Of a stretch of 20,739 nt of DNA, positions 4,496-20,739 are shown one piece after another. The translations under genes were made by a program, and so were the position numbers. A model generated the notes under the pieces. That model was not told the DNA's origin, ran no database searches, and saw only the letters and a list, made by a program, of their open reading frames with translations. The number at the start of each line of letters is the position of its first letter. The stretch's first letter is position 1. The stretch comes from a virus, in the IMG/VR virus record IMGVR_UViG_3300050014_001138, positions 1 through 20,739 of that record. One strand, written 5' to 3'.

Positions 4496-5311
4496 GTCCT
4501 TTAACCAAGGTACCTCAAATTTGTGTATCTTAGTTTCTAATTTCCTTACATATACGTGATTTTCCGGAACGTTGAATAGCATAATAGCATCATCTCCTTC
4601 TTTCCATGTTTCCCATCTTTTTACAGCTTCGTCTATTAATTCCTTTTTGAAATGATTTTTTGCACTCCAGTTGACAAGTTTCTTACGAATATCTCGTCTA
4701 ATCCAAGCTGCATGACCCATTCGGATTTCTTCATCTTCAAAGACATAAGTTCCCACATTAAGCGGATTTAGGATTCTTCTTGTTGGATCTGTTGGTCCAG
4801 GAGCAGAACTTTCATAGGTATAGTTAAAGAAAGTTGAGTGAATGAAGGGAACAAAAGGACGAAATGGATATACTAAATAATGATCAAAATCCCTATAATA
4901 ATTTACATAGGAACAATAAGTAATGGGCCAACCCATTTCATCAATTTTATTTTTAGCATATCTAAACTGATCCTTATCATAAAATTCATCAGCATCAATA
5001 TTTAAAATATGAGAATATCCTTTAGCTCTCATAAGATTAATTCCCATGTTTCTTTTTTCACATTCCTGATTTCTGGAATAAGCACCAAAGTCTGGTTTAA
5101 ATTCGATCAATTCGTCTACAAGACCTAAACTTTTTAGTCTTTCCAATTCTGCCATATCTTTTCTATCCATTGGATTTTTCCAATATGATTTCTTTTGATA
5201 TATTGCAGCTACCCAGTCAATTTGATCTCGTATTTCTAAAATTAGATCATGTAAGAGTTCTGAGGAGTCAAACGCGTTTATCGTAATGCCGAGCTTTTTA
5301 ATGTGAGCCAT
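4478..5311 (-). CDS. Glycosyltransferase, family-2-like (GT-A fold)
   Basis: This 277-residue protein resembles glycan-modifying family-2-like transferases. It starts with a beta strand (KKLGITINAFDSS). It has the pattern R-N-Q-E-C-E-K-R-N at residues 80-88, and a hydrophobic strand ending in the metal- and nucleotide-sugar-binding D-A-D-E-F motif (D106, D108). These are the usual order for this fold (aR...kRN..l..a...G..~il.~DaDEf). The second half is aromatic-rich with a HAAW segment that probably binds the acceptor. Substrate is unknown. In phages such enzymes may glycosylate virion proteins or DNA, or change host surface sugars. Its ATG lies inside the last 14 nt of the upstream GIY-YIG gene, so translation is probably coupled to it. 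Transcription ends at the terminator overlapping its last codons. Confidence 0.75.
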   Translation of the reverse strand: MAHIKKLGITINAFDSSELLHDLILEIRDQIDWVAAIYQKKSYWKNPMDRKDMAELERLKSLGLVDELIEFKPDFGAYSRNQECEKRNMGINLMRAKGYSHILNIDADEFYDKDQFRYAKNKIDEMGWPITYCSYVNYYRDFDHYLVYPFRPFVPFIHSTFFNYTYESSAPGPTDPTRRILNPLNVGTYVFEDEEIRMGHAAWIRRDIRKKLVNWSAKNHFKKELIDEAVKRWETWKEGDDAIMLFNVPENHVYVRKLETKIHKFEVPWLKDKKEGA

Positions 5312-5996
5312 CTTTCTTTAGTTTTGGTTTTTTTAAATTGTTTTTTCTTTCTTCCGAAAATTTTATACCCCAATTTGGATGATTTTCACCACTTAATTTT
5401 TCACTTATTAAATTAATGGATTCTTGGGTATGATGTTTTCCCTTTATCCAGGGTATTTTATCTTTATGTGAATCGCTTTGTTTTTTAATAAAAATTTCAT
5501 ATCGTTTGACCCCTTCTTCTAATCCATATATTTCAATTAGTTCTTTTTTAAATCCCTTTCCCTTTCTAGAAGTAGTTGTGCCCAATTTAGCAAGTCTTTG
5601 ATTTTCTTTCATCCGATTTGCTTGCTCTATTCCATATAATTCTTCATATGTTTTCCCTTTTTGCCATTCTCTCTGTTTCTTTTTTGTATCTTCAGATTGT
5701 TCAGCGCCAGAAAAACCTATGCCCCCTTTTGGACATAAATTATATCCATTGGGGCAAAGAGTTTGAAATTTTTCTATATACTCAGCTTCTTTATGTAAGG
5801 CATCTTCTCGATCTTTACATTCCTCCAATATTTCTCTTTTAAAATTTTTCTTTCCTTCTTTTTTTACAGATTTGAGAAAATATCTGCCGCTTCCAATATA
5901 ATTATCCTCAATGTTATCAGTGGCATGCGAACCGACATATTGTTTTCCAGAGATTAAATTTGTAGTAATATAGACGTAATTAAATTCCCTAGCCAT
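5298..5996 (-). CDS. GIY-YIG homing endonuclease with NUMOD-type tail
   Basis: The 232-residue protein begins with a GIY-YIG nuclease domain: YVYITT at residues 7-12, YVGSH at 20-24 and YIGSG at 33-37, then an acidic residue within EAEYIEKF (69-77) fitting the catalytic Glu, and GYNLCPKGG (85-92), a motif typical of Seg-like phage enzymes. The rest looks like DNA-binding modules. Two copies of a Y-G-x-E-x-x-x-x-R helix occur at ~121 and ~157, and a NUMOD3-like SGENHPNWG at 202-210. Such enzymes cut DNA lacking the gene and so spread between related phages. It stands free between the small membrane-protein gene and the glycosyltransferase gene and overlaps the latter by 14 nt. A TATAAATA-containing element lies 18 nt upstream of the ATG, suggesting its own late promoter. 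Confidence 0.9.
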   Translation of the reverse strand: MAREFNYVYITTNLISGKQYVGSHATDNIEDNYIGSGRYFLKSVKKEGKKNFKREILEECKDREDALHKEAEYIEKFQTLCPNGYNLCPKGGIGFSGAEQSEDTKKKQREWQKGKTYEELYGIEQANRMKENQRLAKLGTTTSRKGKGFKKELIEIYGLEEGVKRYEIFIKKQSDSHKDKIPWIKGKHHTQESINLISEKLSGENHPNWGIKFSEERKNNLKKPKLKKDGSH

Positions 5997-12395: not shown

Positions 12396-12836
12396 TTAAG
12401 GTTTCTGAAATAATTTAAATTTCTGAAAAGCTTCTTCGATTGTATCGAATTCATAAAGTATGGATGAAAAATAAACTAAATATTTTAATCCATTAAAAGT
12501 GAGATATGGATAAGGGCTTTTCTTTCCAAATAATGAATTCTCTCTATTAGTTTCTTGAGTAACCCATCGTAAATTTTCGATATTATTATTTAACCTATTT
12601 CTATCTCTGTGATCGACTTCCGGATAATTGTTGGGATTTTCTATAAAAGTTATTGCTACCGTTCGATGAATTTTTATTACATGACCTTTATTATTTTGGG
12701 ACAAAGTAACTTGATAATATTTTCCTCTTTTAGTTATTTGAGGTTTTAATATTCTTCCAAATTTTATATTTCGAACATTTCCAAAATTGCTAATTTCATA
12801 ATTTACAAATCCCTTAATTGGTAAATATTTTTCCAT
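12396..12836 (-). CDS. HNH homing endonuclease with NUMOD4 domain
   Basis: A 146-residue free-standing homing endonuclease. Residues 7-24 are the NUMOD4 signature (IKGFVNYEISNFGNVRNI). It is followed by the strand region before the nuclease (YYQVTLSQNNKGHVIKIHRTVA), with H57 in the first metal-site strand. The HNH core is then V-D75-H76-R-D...N83-N-N-I-E-N-L-R-W (74-91). After that come the usual TQETNREN helix and a short C-terminal domain. Such genes spread by cutting allelic sites that lack them. It sits between the chaperone-like gene and the tape measure, two genes normally adjacent, so it is probably a later insertion. A hairpin terminator and a TATAAATA box (12844-12851, minus strand) lie just before the start, so it seems to have its own signals. 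Confidence 0.9.
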   Translation of the reverse strand: MEKYLPIKGFVNYEISNFGNVRNIKFGRILKPQITKRGKYYQVTLSQNNKGHVIKIHRTVAITFIENPNNYPEVDHRDRNRLNNNIENLRWVTQETNRENSLFGKKSPYPYLTFNGLKYLVYFSSILYEFDTIEEAFQKFKLFQKP

Positions 12837-17652: not shown

Positions 17653-19677
17653 TTATCGTCTACCTCCCCACATTGTCGAGCCCGAACTAGAACCAGAATA
17701 CCTTGGTTTGTTAGCATTCTGATATATTTTTTGTAATTGAGCCATCTCATTTCCAGAAACATCATCATTATTATAGAGATTATGGAAAGAATCATCGCTT
17801 AATTCTTCCGGGGTTTCTATAGGAGTTTTAAGAAGCTCAGAAATATATCTTTTTATTGGGGAATCATCTAAATCCTGAAGAAAGTCATATAGCCAATCAC
17901 CATATTCGGGTTCTTCATAAAGTCTTGCAGTATTAATACATGCCATTGCAGCATCGTCATGTTTTGCTATACCCTTCCAAGAAAGTTTTACCTTACCAAA
18001 AGCTCCAAATTCTCCAGTAGTTTTTGAATCATTCGGAATTAGGCATTTAGTTTCGACTAATTTTCTTGCAAGTTTGCAGAAGAAGTCTTTATCTTGTTTT
18101 TGGCGGAATCCTGCTTTTCTTCTTGGGGGTTTTTCTCCTGGAACTGGAGCCGTGTGATATGAATGCATAACGCATCCTTCAAAATAACCATCATGATCTG
18201 CAAATTTATCAAGAAACCTCTTACCATTAAAGTTCATTTCTGTAACTAATTTGCAGAAATCCCCGCCAAATTGGTCAAATACAAGTGCCTTGTTAACTTG
18301 AGCCATAACTTCCTCATCTCCATAATTGTCAAAGAATATTCCAACCTGTCTCATTCGAAACATATTTTGGATTTTTCTTTCATCTTTTCTGAGTTTACGA
18401 AGTTTTACCATAGATTTAGGTTCTACTTTGTAAATAGCGGTAACATTAAAGTCATTATCCTTCTTTTCCTCATCCTCATCTTTTCCATCGGCAATATCAT
18501 TGGATAAAACAAAACGATCCCTTTTATCAAAACTATTATTTGGATCAAATCCGGGATGCCAAAGTAATTTGTCTCGATAAAGATCTTCAGACAAAGCGGA
18601 TTTTTCTAATGGATGATATTTATATTTTTTCTCATTCTTTTTAAGCCATCTCATTTGATTTGGTGTTAAAAGAAGATTACTTTTACGGTCAAATAAAAGT
18701 TCATATTCCTGAGCAAATTCTTCTTCCCCAAAGTTTGCTTTGATTTCTTCCATCCAAGCATCATCGTGGCCAGGAACTTCCCAATAGTCGACTCTCTTAA
18801 ATTTAAAAGTGTTTTTTCCTGTATTAGCTTTATCCCATATTTCATAGAATAAGTTATCCATGCCGTCGGGCGTAGATGAGATAATACATTGGGAAACTAA
18901 TGAAGAGGATAAGGTAGGATAAACAGATCTCCAGAATGATTTAACAAGTTTCTGGTTGATGTGAGCAAACTCATCGATGTATAATACGTGGATGGTAAAA
19001 CCGATAGATGCTGTTTTGGTGGTAGCTTGAGAAGTAAGCATACATCCATTATCGAGACGAAGACCTAAAGCCCCGATGGATTTTATACCAGGCTTCATAA
19101 AGAATGGTAGTCCTCGGAATACATCAACAACCTTTGCTACAATTTCTGTAGTAGTGGCCTGTTTGTTAGCAAGAATAAGTAAGTTTCTATCTGTGTGAAA
19201 GCAAAGATACCAAGCAAAGAAAGCTGAAATAGTTGTAGTATTGTGGGACAAAATCCCGTTTGAATAAAATCGGTGTTCTGGTGAATTAACCGTTACATCA
19301 AACATTGAGATTTTTTGTGAATATTTTTTTATATTAATAACTCTTGATAATCCCCTTTTTGTTTGGATACAATTCCCTACTTTTAAATTCTTAATAAATA
19401 CCTCATTCATTAATTTATTAAAAACTATGTGATTATCTGCCCCCTCTAGATACATGCCATTTTCTAAATCCACCCTCCATAGAGTATAAGGCTGGGTTTT
19501 ATGGATTTGAGAAATGGGTTTAAAACCCATATCAGTTTCAATTTCTAAATTCTCTATAGATATGCTTTCAATAATTTTCTTACTATTATCATTTTCATCT
19601 AAATTTAAATGACGATATTCCCATTTTTCGATAAGTTGAATTAAAAATAAGATAAGATATTTAAGGGTTTTTTTCAT
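17653..19677 (-). CDS. terL: Terminase large subunit, C-terminal part with N-terminal split-intein piece
   Basis: A 674-residue protein in two parts. Residues 1-146 are intein (see separate entry). Residues 147-674 are a T4 gp17-like DNA-packaging motor lacking its start: TTTISAFFAWYLCFH directly continues a Walker A motif whose '...GK' must lie on another gene. Walker B is VLYIDE (D235, E236) and the coupling motif is STPDGMDNLF (268-277). The RNase H-like nuclease has D394 (SNDIADG), E480 (TEMNFNG) and D575 (KHDDAAM), fitting the three metal-binding acids of gp17. The last ~60 residues are low-complexity. Without the upstream part the protein cannot bind ATP, so trans-splicing is required. 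The ATG lies inside the last 17 nt of the upstream endonuclease gene. It precedes sheath and tube as in T4. Confidence 0.92.
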   Translation of the reverse strand: MKKTLKYLILFLIQLIEKWEYRHLNLDENDNSKKIIESISIENLEIETDMGFKPISQIHKTQPYTLWRVDLENGMYLEGADNHIVFNKLMNEVFIKNLKVGNCIQTKRGLSRVINIKKYSQKISMFDVTVNSPEHRFYSNGILSHNTTTISAFFAWYLCFHTDRNLLILANKQATTTEIVAKVVDVFRGLPFFMKPGIKSIGALGLRLDNGCMLTSQATTKTASIGFTIHVLYIDEFAHINQKLVKSFWRSVYPTLSSSLVSQCIISSTPDGMDNLFYEIWDKANTGKNTFKFKRVDYWEVPGHDDAWMEEIKANFGEEEFAQEYELLFDRKSNLLLTPNQMRWLKKNEKKYKYHPLEKSALSEDLYRDKLLWHPGFDPNNSFDKRDRFVLSNDIADGKDEDEEKKDNDFNVTAIYKVEPKSMVKLRKLRKDERKIQNMFRMRQVGIFFDNYGDEEVMAQVNKALVFDQFGGDFCKLVTEMNFNGKRFLDKFADHDGYFEGCVMHSYHTAPVPGEKPPRRKAGFRQKQDKDFFCKLARKLVETKCLIPNDSKTTGEFGAFGKVKLSWKGIAKHDDAAMACINTARLYEEPEYGDWLYDFLQDLDDSPIKRYISELLKTPIETPEELSDDSFHNLYNNDDVSGNEMAQLQKIYQNANKPRYSGSSSGSTMWGGRR
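19240..19677 (-). other. C-terminal piece of a split intein (IntC), atypically long
   Basis: Residues 1-146 of the terminase piece. Residues 44-58 (LEIETDMGFKPISQI) match the strand region following intein block A. Residues 77-86 (LEGADNHIVF) are block B with its His83. Residues 128-141 (DVTVNSPEHRFYSN...) are block F, and GILSHN (141-146) is block G with penultimate His and final Asn146. The next residue, Thr147, is the +1 nucleophile and is also the Thr of the Walker A GKT. Block A with its Cys1 is absent, so the N-intein is short and lies on a gene to the right of the window. I recall the AceL-TerL intein from Antarctic lake metagenomes as having the same early split in the same protein. 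Residues 1-43 would connect block A to the rest. Confidence 0.9.
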
Positions 19678-20722
19678 AAATAAAATCTATACATTTTTTT
19701 ACAGTATTTTCCGGATTTTTCTTATATTCATTTTCCCAAATATGCAAAATCTCATATCCGGCATTTTTCAATATGTAATCCCTATCGTATTCTCTTTTTT
19801 GGTTTTCGGGGGTATTTCTATGCCAGTAAACCCCATCGAATTCAATTATCTTATTTTTATCTAATATAATAAAATCCGGGCATAAAACTTTATTACTTAA
19901 AATTAATCTATATTCATTGTTTATATCATTATCCACACAAGTTGCATAAAAAATTTGTTTAAAATCTTTTTTAATTTTAAGGTCTAGTGTTTTAAATAAT
20001 ATTTGAGAAATATTTGAATAATTTTGTTTTTTATAATTTTTTAACCATTTTTCCTGTCTCCCTCTCCATCTTTCTAACCCTTTTTCCTCCCCGTATTTTT
20101 CTATACATTTTTTTAACGAAAAAGTTGTTTGCCTTTCTTTTAACTTTTCTTTTGCTTCTTCTTCAGAAAATCCTCTTTTTAAATAATATTCTAAAGTGGT
20201 ATCAAATTCTCTTTCGCTTAATGACCCTTTTAAAAATTTTTTATAATCATTTTCGGATAAATTTCTTTTTTTATAAAATTCTTTGCTAAATGGGGATAAT
20301 TCTTTTCTTTTTTGTTCAGACATATTATTTTTATGGACAGGATTTTTTTCTCCTTTTACCATTTCAGAAAACATTTTTCTATATTTCTCTTCCTTCATGT
20401 GTTTACCCGAATTAACAGATATATTTTTTATATCATTTTCTGTACAAACAGGGGAATCGGGAAATTCTTTCCTATAATCTTTTATAGTTTTATCAGGATG
20501 AGAAAATTTTATGTGTTGGCCGTATATTCTCGTAACTTTTTGACCGCACCATTTGCATATGATATAGTCTTTTCCTTCTATACCAGATAAATATTTTTCC
20601 CTCTTTTTATCTGAATAAGTTTTGCTGTATTTGTCTTTGCATTTTTGAGAACACATTTTAACTCTTCCATCTGATGTAGAAAATTCTTTGTTACAAATAA
20701 TACATTTTTTTATAGTTTCCAT
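19661..20722 (-). CDS. Vsr-like (EDxHD-type) free-standing homing endonuclease
   Basis: A 353-residue modular protein. Residues 7-28 hold a Cys4 zinc motif (C7-x2-C10, C24-x3-C28). Residues 56-75 hold a second one (C56-x2-C59, H70-x4-H75) followed by KTIKDYRKEFPDSP. Then come NUMOD3-like GEKNPVHK (124-131), two further helical segments and a KYGEEKGLERWRGRQEKW helix (209-226). The C-terminal nuclease has P-D283-F, E294-F-D-G-x-Y-W-H301, then R-D315 and GYEILHIWENE, the order seen in Vsr-like nucleases. This family was described with 'fractured' phage genes in which such an enzyme lies between the halves of a split-intein gene, and here it lies directly before the terminase C part. The gene ends with 17 nt inside the next gene; an AT-rich leader (TATAAAATATATATT) precedes the ATG. 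Confidence 0.88.
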   Translation of the reverse strand: METIKKCIICNKEFSTSDGRVKMCSQKCKDKYSKTYSDKKREKYLSGIEGKDYIICKWCGQKVTRIYGQHIKFSHPDKTIKDYRKEFPDSPVCTENDIKNISVNSGKHMKEEKYRKMFSEMVKGEKNPVHKNNMSEQKRKELSPFSKEFYKKRNLSENDYKKFLKGSLSEREFDTTLEYYLKRGFSEEEAKEKLKERQTTFSLKKCIEKYGEEKGLERWRGRQEKWLKNYKKQNYSNISQILFKTLDLKIKKDFKQIFYATCVDNDINNEYRLILSNKVLCPDFIILDKNKIIEFDGVYWHRNTPENQKREYDRDYILKNAGYEILHIWENEYKKNPENTVKKCIDFIYEKNP

Positions 20723-20739
20723 AATATATATTTTATAGC

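Follow-up and report, generated by a model that had tools for sequence, protein, structure and literature searches.

A large terminase gene very probably fractured within its Walker A motif by a naturally split intein in a metagenomic phage

The DNA analysed here (the window) is the entire IMG/VR virus record IMGVR_UViG_3300050014_001138, positions 1–20,739, whose right end carries, on the minus strand, the C-terminal half of a gene for the large terminase subunit (TerL) that is very probably fractured within Walker A (GK/T) by a naturally split intein. The open reading frame at 17653–19677 (−) encodes 674 aa, of which residues 147–674 form a T4-type TerL (PF03237, E = 5e-13; PHROG terminase, E = 3e-26) and residues 1–146 a putative C-terminal intein half (C-intein), matched by Pfam Intein_splicing at E = 2e-4, weaker than Pfam's own cut-off. 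Intein blocks B, F and G are present and block A is absent; since only 3 open codons precede the ATG (the open frame comprises 677 codons), the intein is not contiguous. Its catalytic residues are block B His83, the terminal His-Asn and Thr at the +1 position (Thr147), and comparison with intein-free relatives revealed that Thr147 corresponds to the leading Thr after GK in the Walker A motif of TerL, GK/TTT. Ala80 and His83 are invariant in the family alignment, while many other inteins have Thr at the Ala position. An earlier note on this sequence had claimed both a C-piece opening with an intein that lacks block A, joined at GK/Thr147, and a Vsr-like endonuclease gene adjoining it upstream, and both claims held. 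The features, all on the minus strand, are as follows.

17653..19239 (−), C-terminal extein of TerL, 528 aa and stop, comprising the remaining ATPase domain and the nuclease domain (sequence, Pfam, PHROGs)
19237..19242 (−), predicted C-terminal splice junction Asn146/Thr147 (comparison with intein-free relatives)
19240..19308 (−), blocks F and G, residues 124–146, ...MFDVTV...HRFYSNGILSHN (sequence, alignment)
19240..19677 (−), putative C-intein, 146 aa, ending ...GILSHN (sequence, Pfam, family alignment, comparison with solved inteins)
19429..19440 (−), block B motif ADNH, residues 80–83 (family alignment)
19603..19677 (−), predicted N-terminal helix of the C-intein, residues 1–25, corresponding to hairpin helix 2 of contiguous relatives (alignment, model of relative L066)
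19661..19677 (−), 17-nt overlap between the end of the endonuclease gene and the start of the C-piece, in different frames (also seen in 6 other relatives)
19661..20722 (−), free-standing endonuclease gene, 353 aa (sequence, fold prediction)
19688..19876 (−), predicted I-Bth0305I/Vsr-like nuclease, approximately residues 283–345 of the endonuclease (profile search, predicted structure)
20723..20739 (−), final bases to the contig end, beyond which the N-terminal piece of TerL (N-piece) and the N-terminal intein half (N-intein) would be expected (from 56 relatives)

The endonuclease has a zinc-ribbon-like N-terminus and its nuclease at the C-terminus. In hmmsearch the C-terminal part matched I-Bth0305I (3r3p) at E = 0.008 and Vsr at E of about 0.4, and 3r3p was also the top Foldseek match of the predicted fold (probability 1.00, template modelling (TM) score 0.70 over the target, E = 4e-3), giving moderate support to an EDxHD/Vsr-like nuclease fold of the I-Bth0305I type. 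The contig ends just upstream of this gene, so the N-piece of the window phage cannot be read. A second contig, of 35,380 b and without differences from the window across the overlap, ends 16 bases beyond the window end; an exact-match search with its last 33 bases found no other contig, and a scan with an N-piece profile found no contig of the same sample matching the window.

Scanning with the single C-intein sequence recovered 13 loci, and scanning with their alignment recovered 127 relatives in IMG/VR, of which 80 were kept; after de-duplication and addition of phage records, the final set held 71 C-inteins, 65 split and 6 contiguous (individual loci are given as L numbers). A scan of a contig collection gave as sole match one contig of a metagenome-assembled genome (MAG), near-identical to L003. 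Among the 65 non-redundant split loci, 56 contained a matching TerL N-piece in the same locus, and two more huge phages carried one farther from the C-piece; in the 735-kb phage LR756501, about 12.8 kb of DNA with unrelated genes separates the two halves. The same-strand upstream gene that the earlier note had predicted, TerL sequence ending in GK followed by Cys and block A, was thus found in relatives, and these 56 loci present two genes with complementary halves of both intein and protein, of which the window contig holds the C-half alone. With 127 C-intein relatives and a matching N-piece in 56 of 65 split loci, the arrangement in the window is not due to chance. The N-pieces are mostly about 110–130 residues long and end in RQxGK (rarely RQTAK or RQSYK), followed by Cys, the N-intein and a stop. 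The N-intein is longer than the 25–45 residues that had been anticipated, at 46–72 aa (median 55). The first intein residue is Cys in 56/56 N-inteins, after (G/A/Y)K; the +1 residue is Thr in all, and the C-intein ends in His-Asn in 68/71. At L017 and L016, SSQ/T and NLN/T, respectively, replace SHN/T. No second TerL of the same Pfam family, which would have spoken against the earlier note, was seen in thirteen IMG/VR relatives (35–323 kb, one match each). An argument from ribosome-binding sites was dropped, as none of 63 C-piece starts showed a Shine-Dalgarno-like motif. With the lack of this motif, and with one relative, L130, found on a MAG contig assigned to Bacteroidales, a host among the Bacteroidota is possible.

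The same site is found empty, and also occupied by uninterrupted inteins. Close relatives carry intein-free TerL with RQxGK/TTT intact exactly at the junction; the TerL proteins most similar to that of the window (70% identity) are intein-free and read MASRQTGK/TTTISAFFAWYL, and another intein-free TerL, at 66% identity, comes from the window's own metagenome. Contiguous inteins occupy the identical site in L066, L099, L100 and L104, and also, lacking the hairpin described below, in Ackermannviridae (e.g. Magnus, Kuja). A single gene is seen in intein-free, contiguous, split with endonuclease, and split without endonuclease alleles, and on the TerL tree, a quick one with some long branches, these four states are intermixed. 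The closest comparison is between L100 (contiguous) and L084 (split, with endonuclease), in which the flanking DNA is 94–96% identical on both sides and the differences are confined to the hairpin region and the endonuclease gene.

Since the split N- and C-intein rows could not be usefully aligned for structure prediction, we modelled the contiguous intein of L066 (predicted local distance difference test (pLDDT) 89.7, predicted TM score (pTM) 0.83). The model shows a HINT fold, its best matches being solved inteins, and the best solved match to the family, by sequence and by fold, was the split intein VidaL. The model places alpha-1 at 21–30 and a helical hairpin at 37–51 and 54–68, with the remaining fold following, and in the modelled structure the split point is at the turn of this two-helix hairpin. 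Solved inteins align only from profile position 34–43 onward, which identifies the second hairpin helix as the extra N-terminal stretch of the C-intein; the additional stretch of roughly 40 residues proposed earlier is therefore real. The hairpin helices of the two halves probably pair.

Several observations point to movement of the unit formed by N-intein, endonuclease gene and C-intein (the cassette). Of 59 close pairs, 25 had significantly lower synonymous divergence (pS) in the intein halves than in the exteins and 4 had higher, the pairs being non-independent and some near saturation. The four reverse pairs are L110/L113 versus L127/L128, in which the exteins share 99–100% protein identity and the inteins 46%; between L113 and L127, near-identity at the DNA level extends through GK and is lost from the Cys codon on, placing the left boundary at GK/C. 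Low synonymous divergence together with this sharp boundary indicates that the cassette moves. The endonuclease itself appears modular: L039 and L067 have the intein and the DNA-binding part of the endonuclease in common while the nuclease modules differ, and the near-identical N-terminal parts joined to different C-terminal modules (EFDG...ENxKRE type versus EFNG type) imply exchange of the nuclease module.

A full-length endonuclease gene of the Vsr-like/I-Bth0305I kind lies between the gene halves in 36 of the 65 split loci, the layout of a fractured gene, and others hold relics. Most endonuclease-poor loci checked (L003, L009, L056, L058, L071, L078, L085, L087, L090 and L121) retain a KCIxFI-like relic of the endonuclease tail, either within the gap or joined to the N-piece, while no clear relic was found in L094 and L115 among those checked. 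Because relics persist in split loci that have lost the endonuclease, the fracture outlives it. This survival, the contiguous and intein-free alleles and the signs of horizontal movement had not been foreseen in the earlier note. The ratio of nonsynonymous to synonymous substitution (dN/dS) was mostly well below 1 in TerL, the endonuclease and the C-intein, the N-intein being the least constrained. At three loci the gap holds a large gene of another kind, L007:4017–6014 (666 aa), L075:3305–5008 (568 aa) and L118:2756–4480 (−) (575 aa), those of L075 and L118 matching DUF7487, and since different large genes occupy it, this gap may serve as an insertion site for other elements.

The explanation that we favour with high confidence as a whole is a split-intein TerL that is restored by trans-splicing, spread by homing of the cassette and locked in its fractured state. 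The off-contig upstream gene would encode about the first 122 residues of TerL, up to GK, followed by a Cys-initiated N-intein of about 50–60 residues with a terminal helix. The two halves would meet, probably brought together by this helix pairing with the one that opens the C-intein, and would then rebuild the intein fold; class 1 splicing (Cys1, block B His, His-Asn, Thr+1) would join GK to TTT and yield an intact P-loop, whereas the ATP site would be incomplete in each piece by itself. The P-loop codons of intein-free terL are probably where the endonuclease cuts, and repair would copy in the entire N-intein/endonuclease/C-intein cassette; homing into an element-free allele is indicated indirectly, by the empty alleles, the low synonymous divergence and the sharp left boundary. 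In evolutionary terms, the direction would be from contiguous to split, with an endonuclease gene at the hairpin tip of a formerly contiguous intein; when the endonuclease later decays, the fracture would stay, since an essential protein requires both halves. Whether split inteins arise in this way, by an endonuclease gene landing in a tolerant hairpin tip, homing of the cassette, docking of the halves by their helices and locking in of the fracture, we rate at about an even chance. Some observations weigh against the favoured explanation: the window phage's own N-piece is not on the contig, the pS pairs are limited as stated above, a few relatives have odd C-intein ends (LN, SN, SQ), and splicing, cutting and homing are all read from sequence. 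In addition, identity between L113 and L127 returns in the final section of the C-intein, and part of the endonuclease gene is common to both; the cassette thus recombines in pieces as well as in full.

Could the halves instead be joined at the level of RNA or translation, by a group I or II intron, frameshifting or readthrough? Group I introns are known to split phage terL genes (PMC12363816; ICP1, PMC10448857), but no Rfam intron was matched in the window, L006, L009, L017 or L066, the gap between halves in several relatives (−8 to 77 nt) is too small for an intron, both halves conserve intein residues that an intron does not need, and the endonuclease and the C-piece are in different frames; we consider this alternative barely credible. 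It is very unlikely, too, that the TerL locus is dead, either because endonuclease insertion broke the intein and another terminase is used, or because the fragment is a decayed copy. The odd ends of L016 (LN) and L017 (SQ), the broken N-piece of L013 and a second TerL-like ATPase gene in two huge phages would fit such decay. Against it, exteins and C-intein mostly have a dN/dS well below 1, the splice residues are kept across 71 loci, each of the thirteen IMG/VR relatives has a single TerL match, and the second TerL-like genes, their P-loop being damaged (SRQMGIT/S), are not replacements.

Less easily dismissed, and in our judgement unlikely to a lesser degree, is that the endonuclease gene alone is the mobile unit, splitting contiguous inteins at the hairpin, while presence or absence of the intein reflects recombination or loss. 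The confinement of the L084/L100 differences to the hairpin and endonuclease region favours it, as does the independent recombination of modules, seen in the nuclease exchange of L039/L067 and the shared DNA-binding part of L113/L127. Mobility of the endonuclease alone is, however, at odds with the low synonymous divergence of both intein halves relative to the exteins in several pairs, with the left boundary of L113/L127 at the splice codon, and with the intermixing of intein-free and intein-bearing TerL on the tree.

Already known are P-loop inteins of TerL, split TerL inteins in which the +1 residue is a different one, and fractured genes that carry Vsr-like endonucleases. Dassa et al. 2009 reportedly described fractured genes in which N- and C-intein halves flank a free-standing I-Bth0305I/Vsr-like endonuclease gene, and the window family has the same layout of gene halves and endonuclease. 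What sets it apart is the interrupted gene and the position within it (TerL Walker A), the atypical place of the split, and the presence at this one site of further alleles that are empty, contiguous or endonuclease-less. To our knowledge, how contiguous inteins become split is an open question, and the TerL family offers an unusually complete set of natural intermediates, including near-identical pairs for direct comparison.

AceL-TerL and GOS-TerL are likewise natural split inteins of metagenomic origin in phage-type TerL, broken early in the fold; they are split after alpha-1 (S2) (PMC13014065), have N/C halves of 25/104 aa and 37/115 aa, respectively, and both have Cys at +1 (PMC11766414). 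The window family is broken in the same region of the fold but falls outside this type (+1 Cys, N-intein 25–37 aa, C-intein 104–115 aa), with Thr at +1, the Walker A GK/T site, an endonuclease gene in the gap, an N-intein of 46–72 aa and a C-intein of 146 aa, both halves being longer because of the helical hairpin at the break. The mycobacteriophage intein TerL1-a is a contiguous P-loop intein of TerL (PMC5050341), and it and the Ackermannviridae inteins (e.g. Klebsiella phage Magnus) are inserted, as in the window, between the invariant Lys and Thr of Walker A; unlike the window intein, these are single-chain, and those of Ackermannviridae have neither the hairpin nor a gap endonuclease gene. 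VidaL and PolB16 OarG, with N-inteins of 16 and 15 aa split at S1 (PMC13014065), resemble the window family as natural atypically split inteins but lack a hairpin. The C-half of Cat, an engineered consensus intein, also aligns to the family (6dsl, E = 5e-9). A search of the open-access literature found no description of TerL being split at Walker A. The family would supply new natural split inteins of the Cys1/Thr+1 kind by the dozen, probably equipped with a helical docking pair of their own and useful for protein ligation, and in many large phages the packaging ATPase would be without a complete P-loop until two proteins meet.

Some further observations concern TerL genes of relatives. In the cultured Salicola phage SCTP-2 (MF360958), TerL is apparently spread over three genes 40–173 kb apart: an N-piece ending in ARQLGK/C (L144, record near 429.5 kb), a middle piece running from HN/T through a second N-intein after ...SISLLY/C (L019:3950–4843, 256.4 kb), and a C-piece with a C-intein before CDEFAF (Walker B) and a third, contiguous intein (L149, near 216 kb). 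The C-pieces of L127 and L109 (1107–1115 aa) contain a contiguous intein with a LAGLIDADG-like middle at the TerL nuclease motif (N/H)DD/C, so that these TerL combine a split intein in the ATPase with a whole one in the nuclease. The second TerL-like ATPase genes with the damaged P-loop SRQMGIT or SRQMGIS are located at L131 (LR756501, near 700 kb) and L017:7937–8746 (LR756500). Elsewhere in the window, two more endonuclease-like genes were seen, one at 12396–12836 (−), HNH-like by eye only, and one at 5298–5996 (−), matching homing endonuclease PHROGs.
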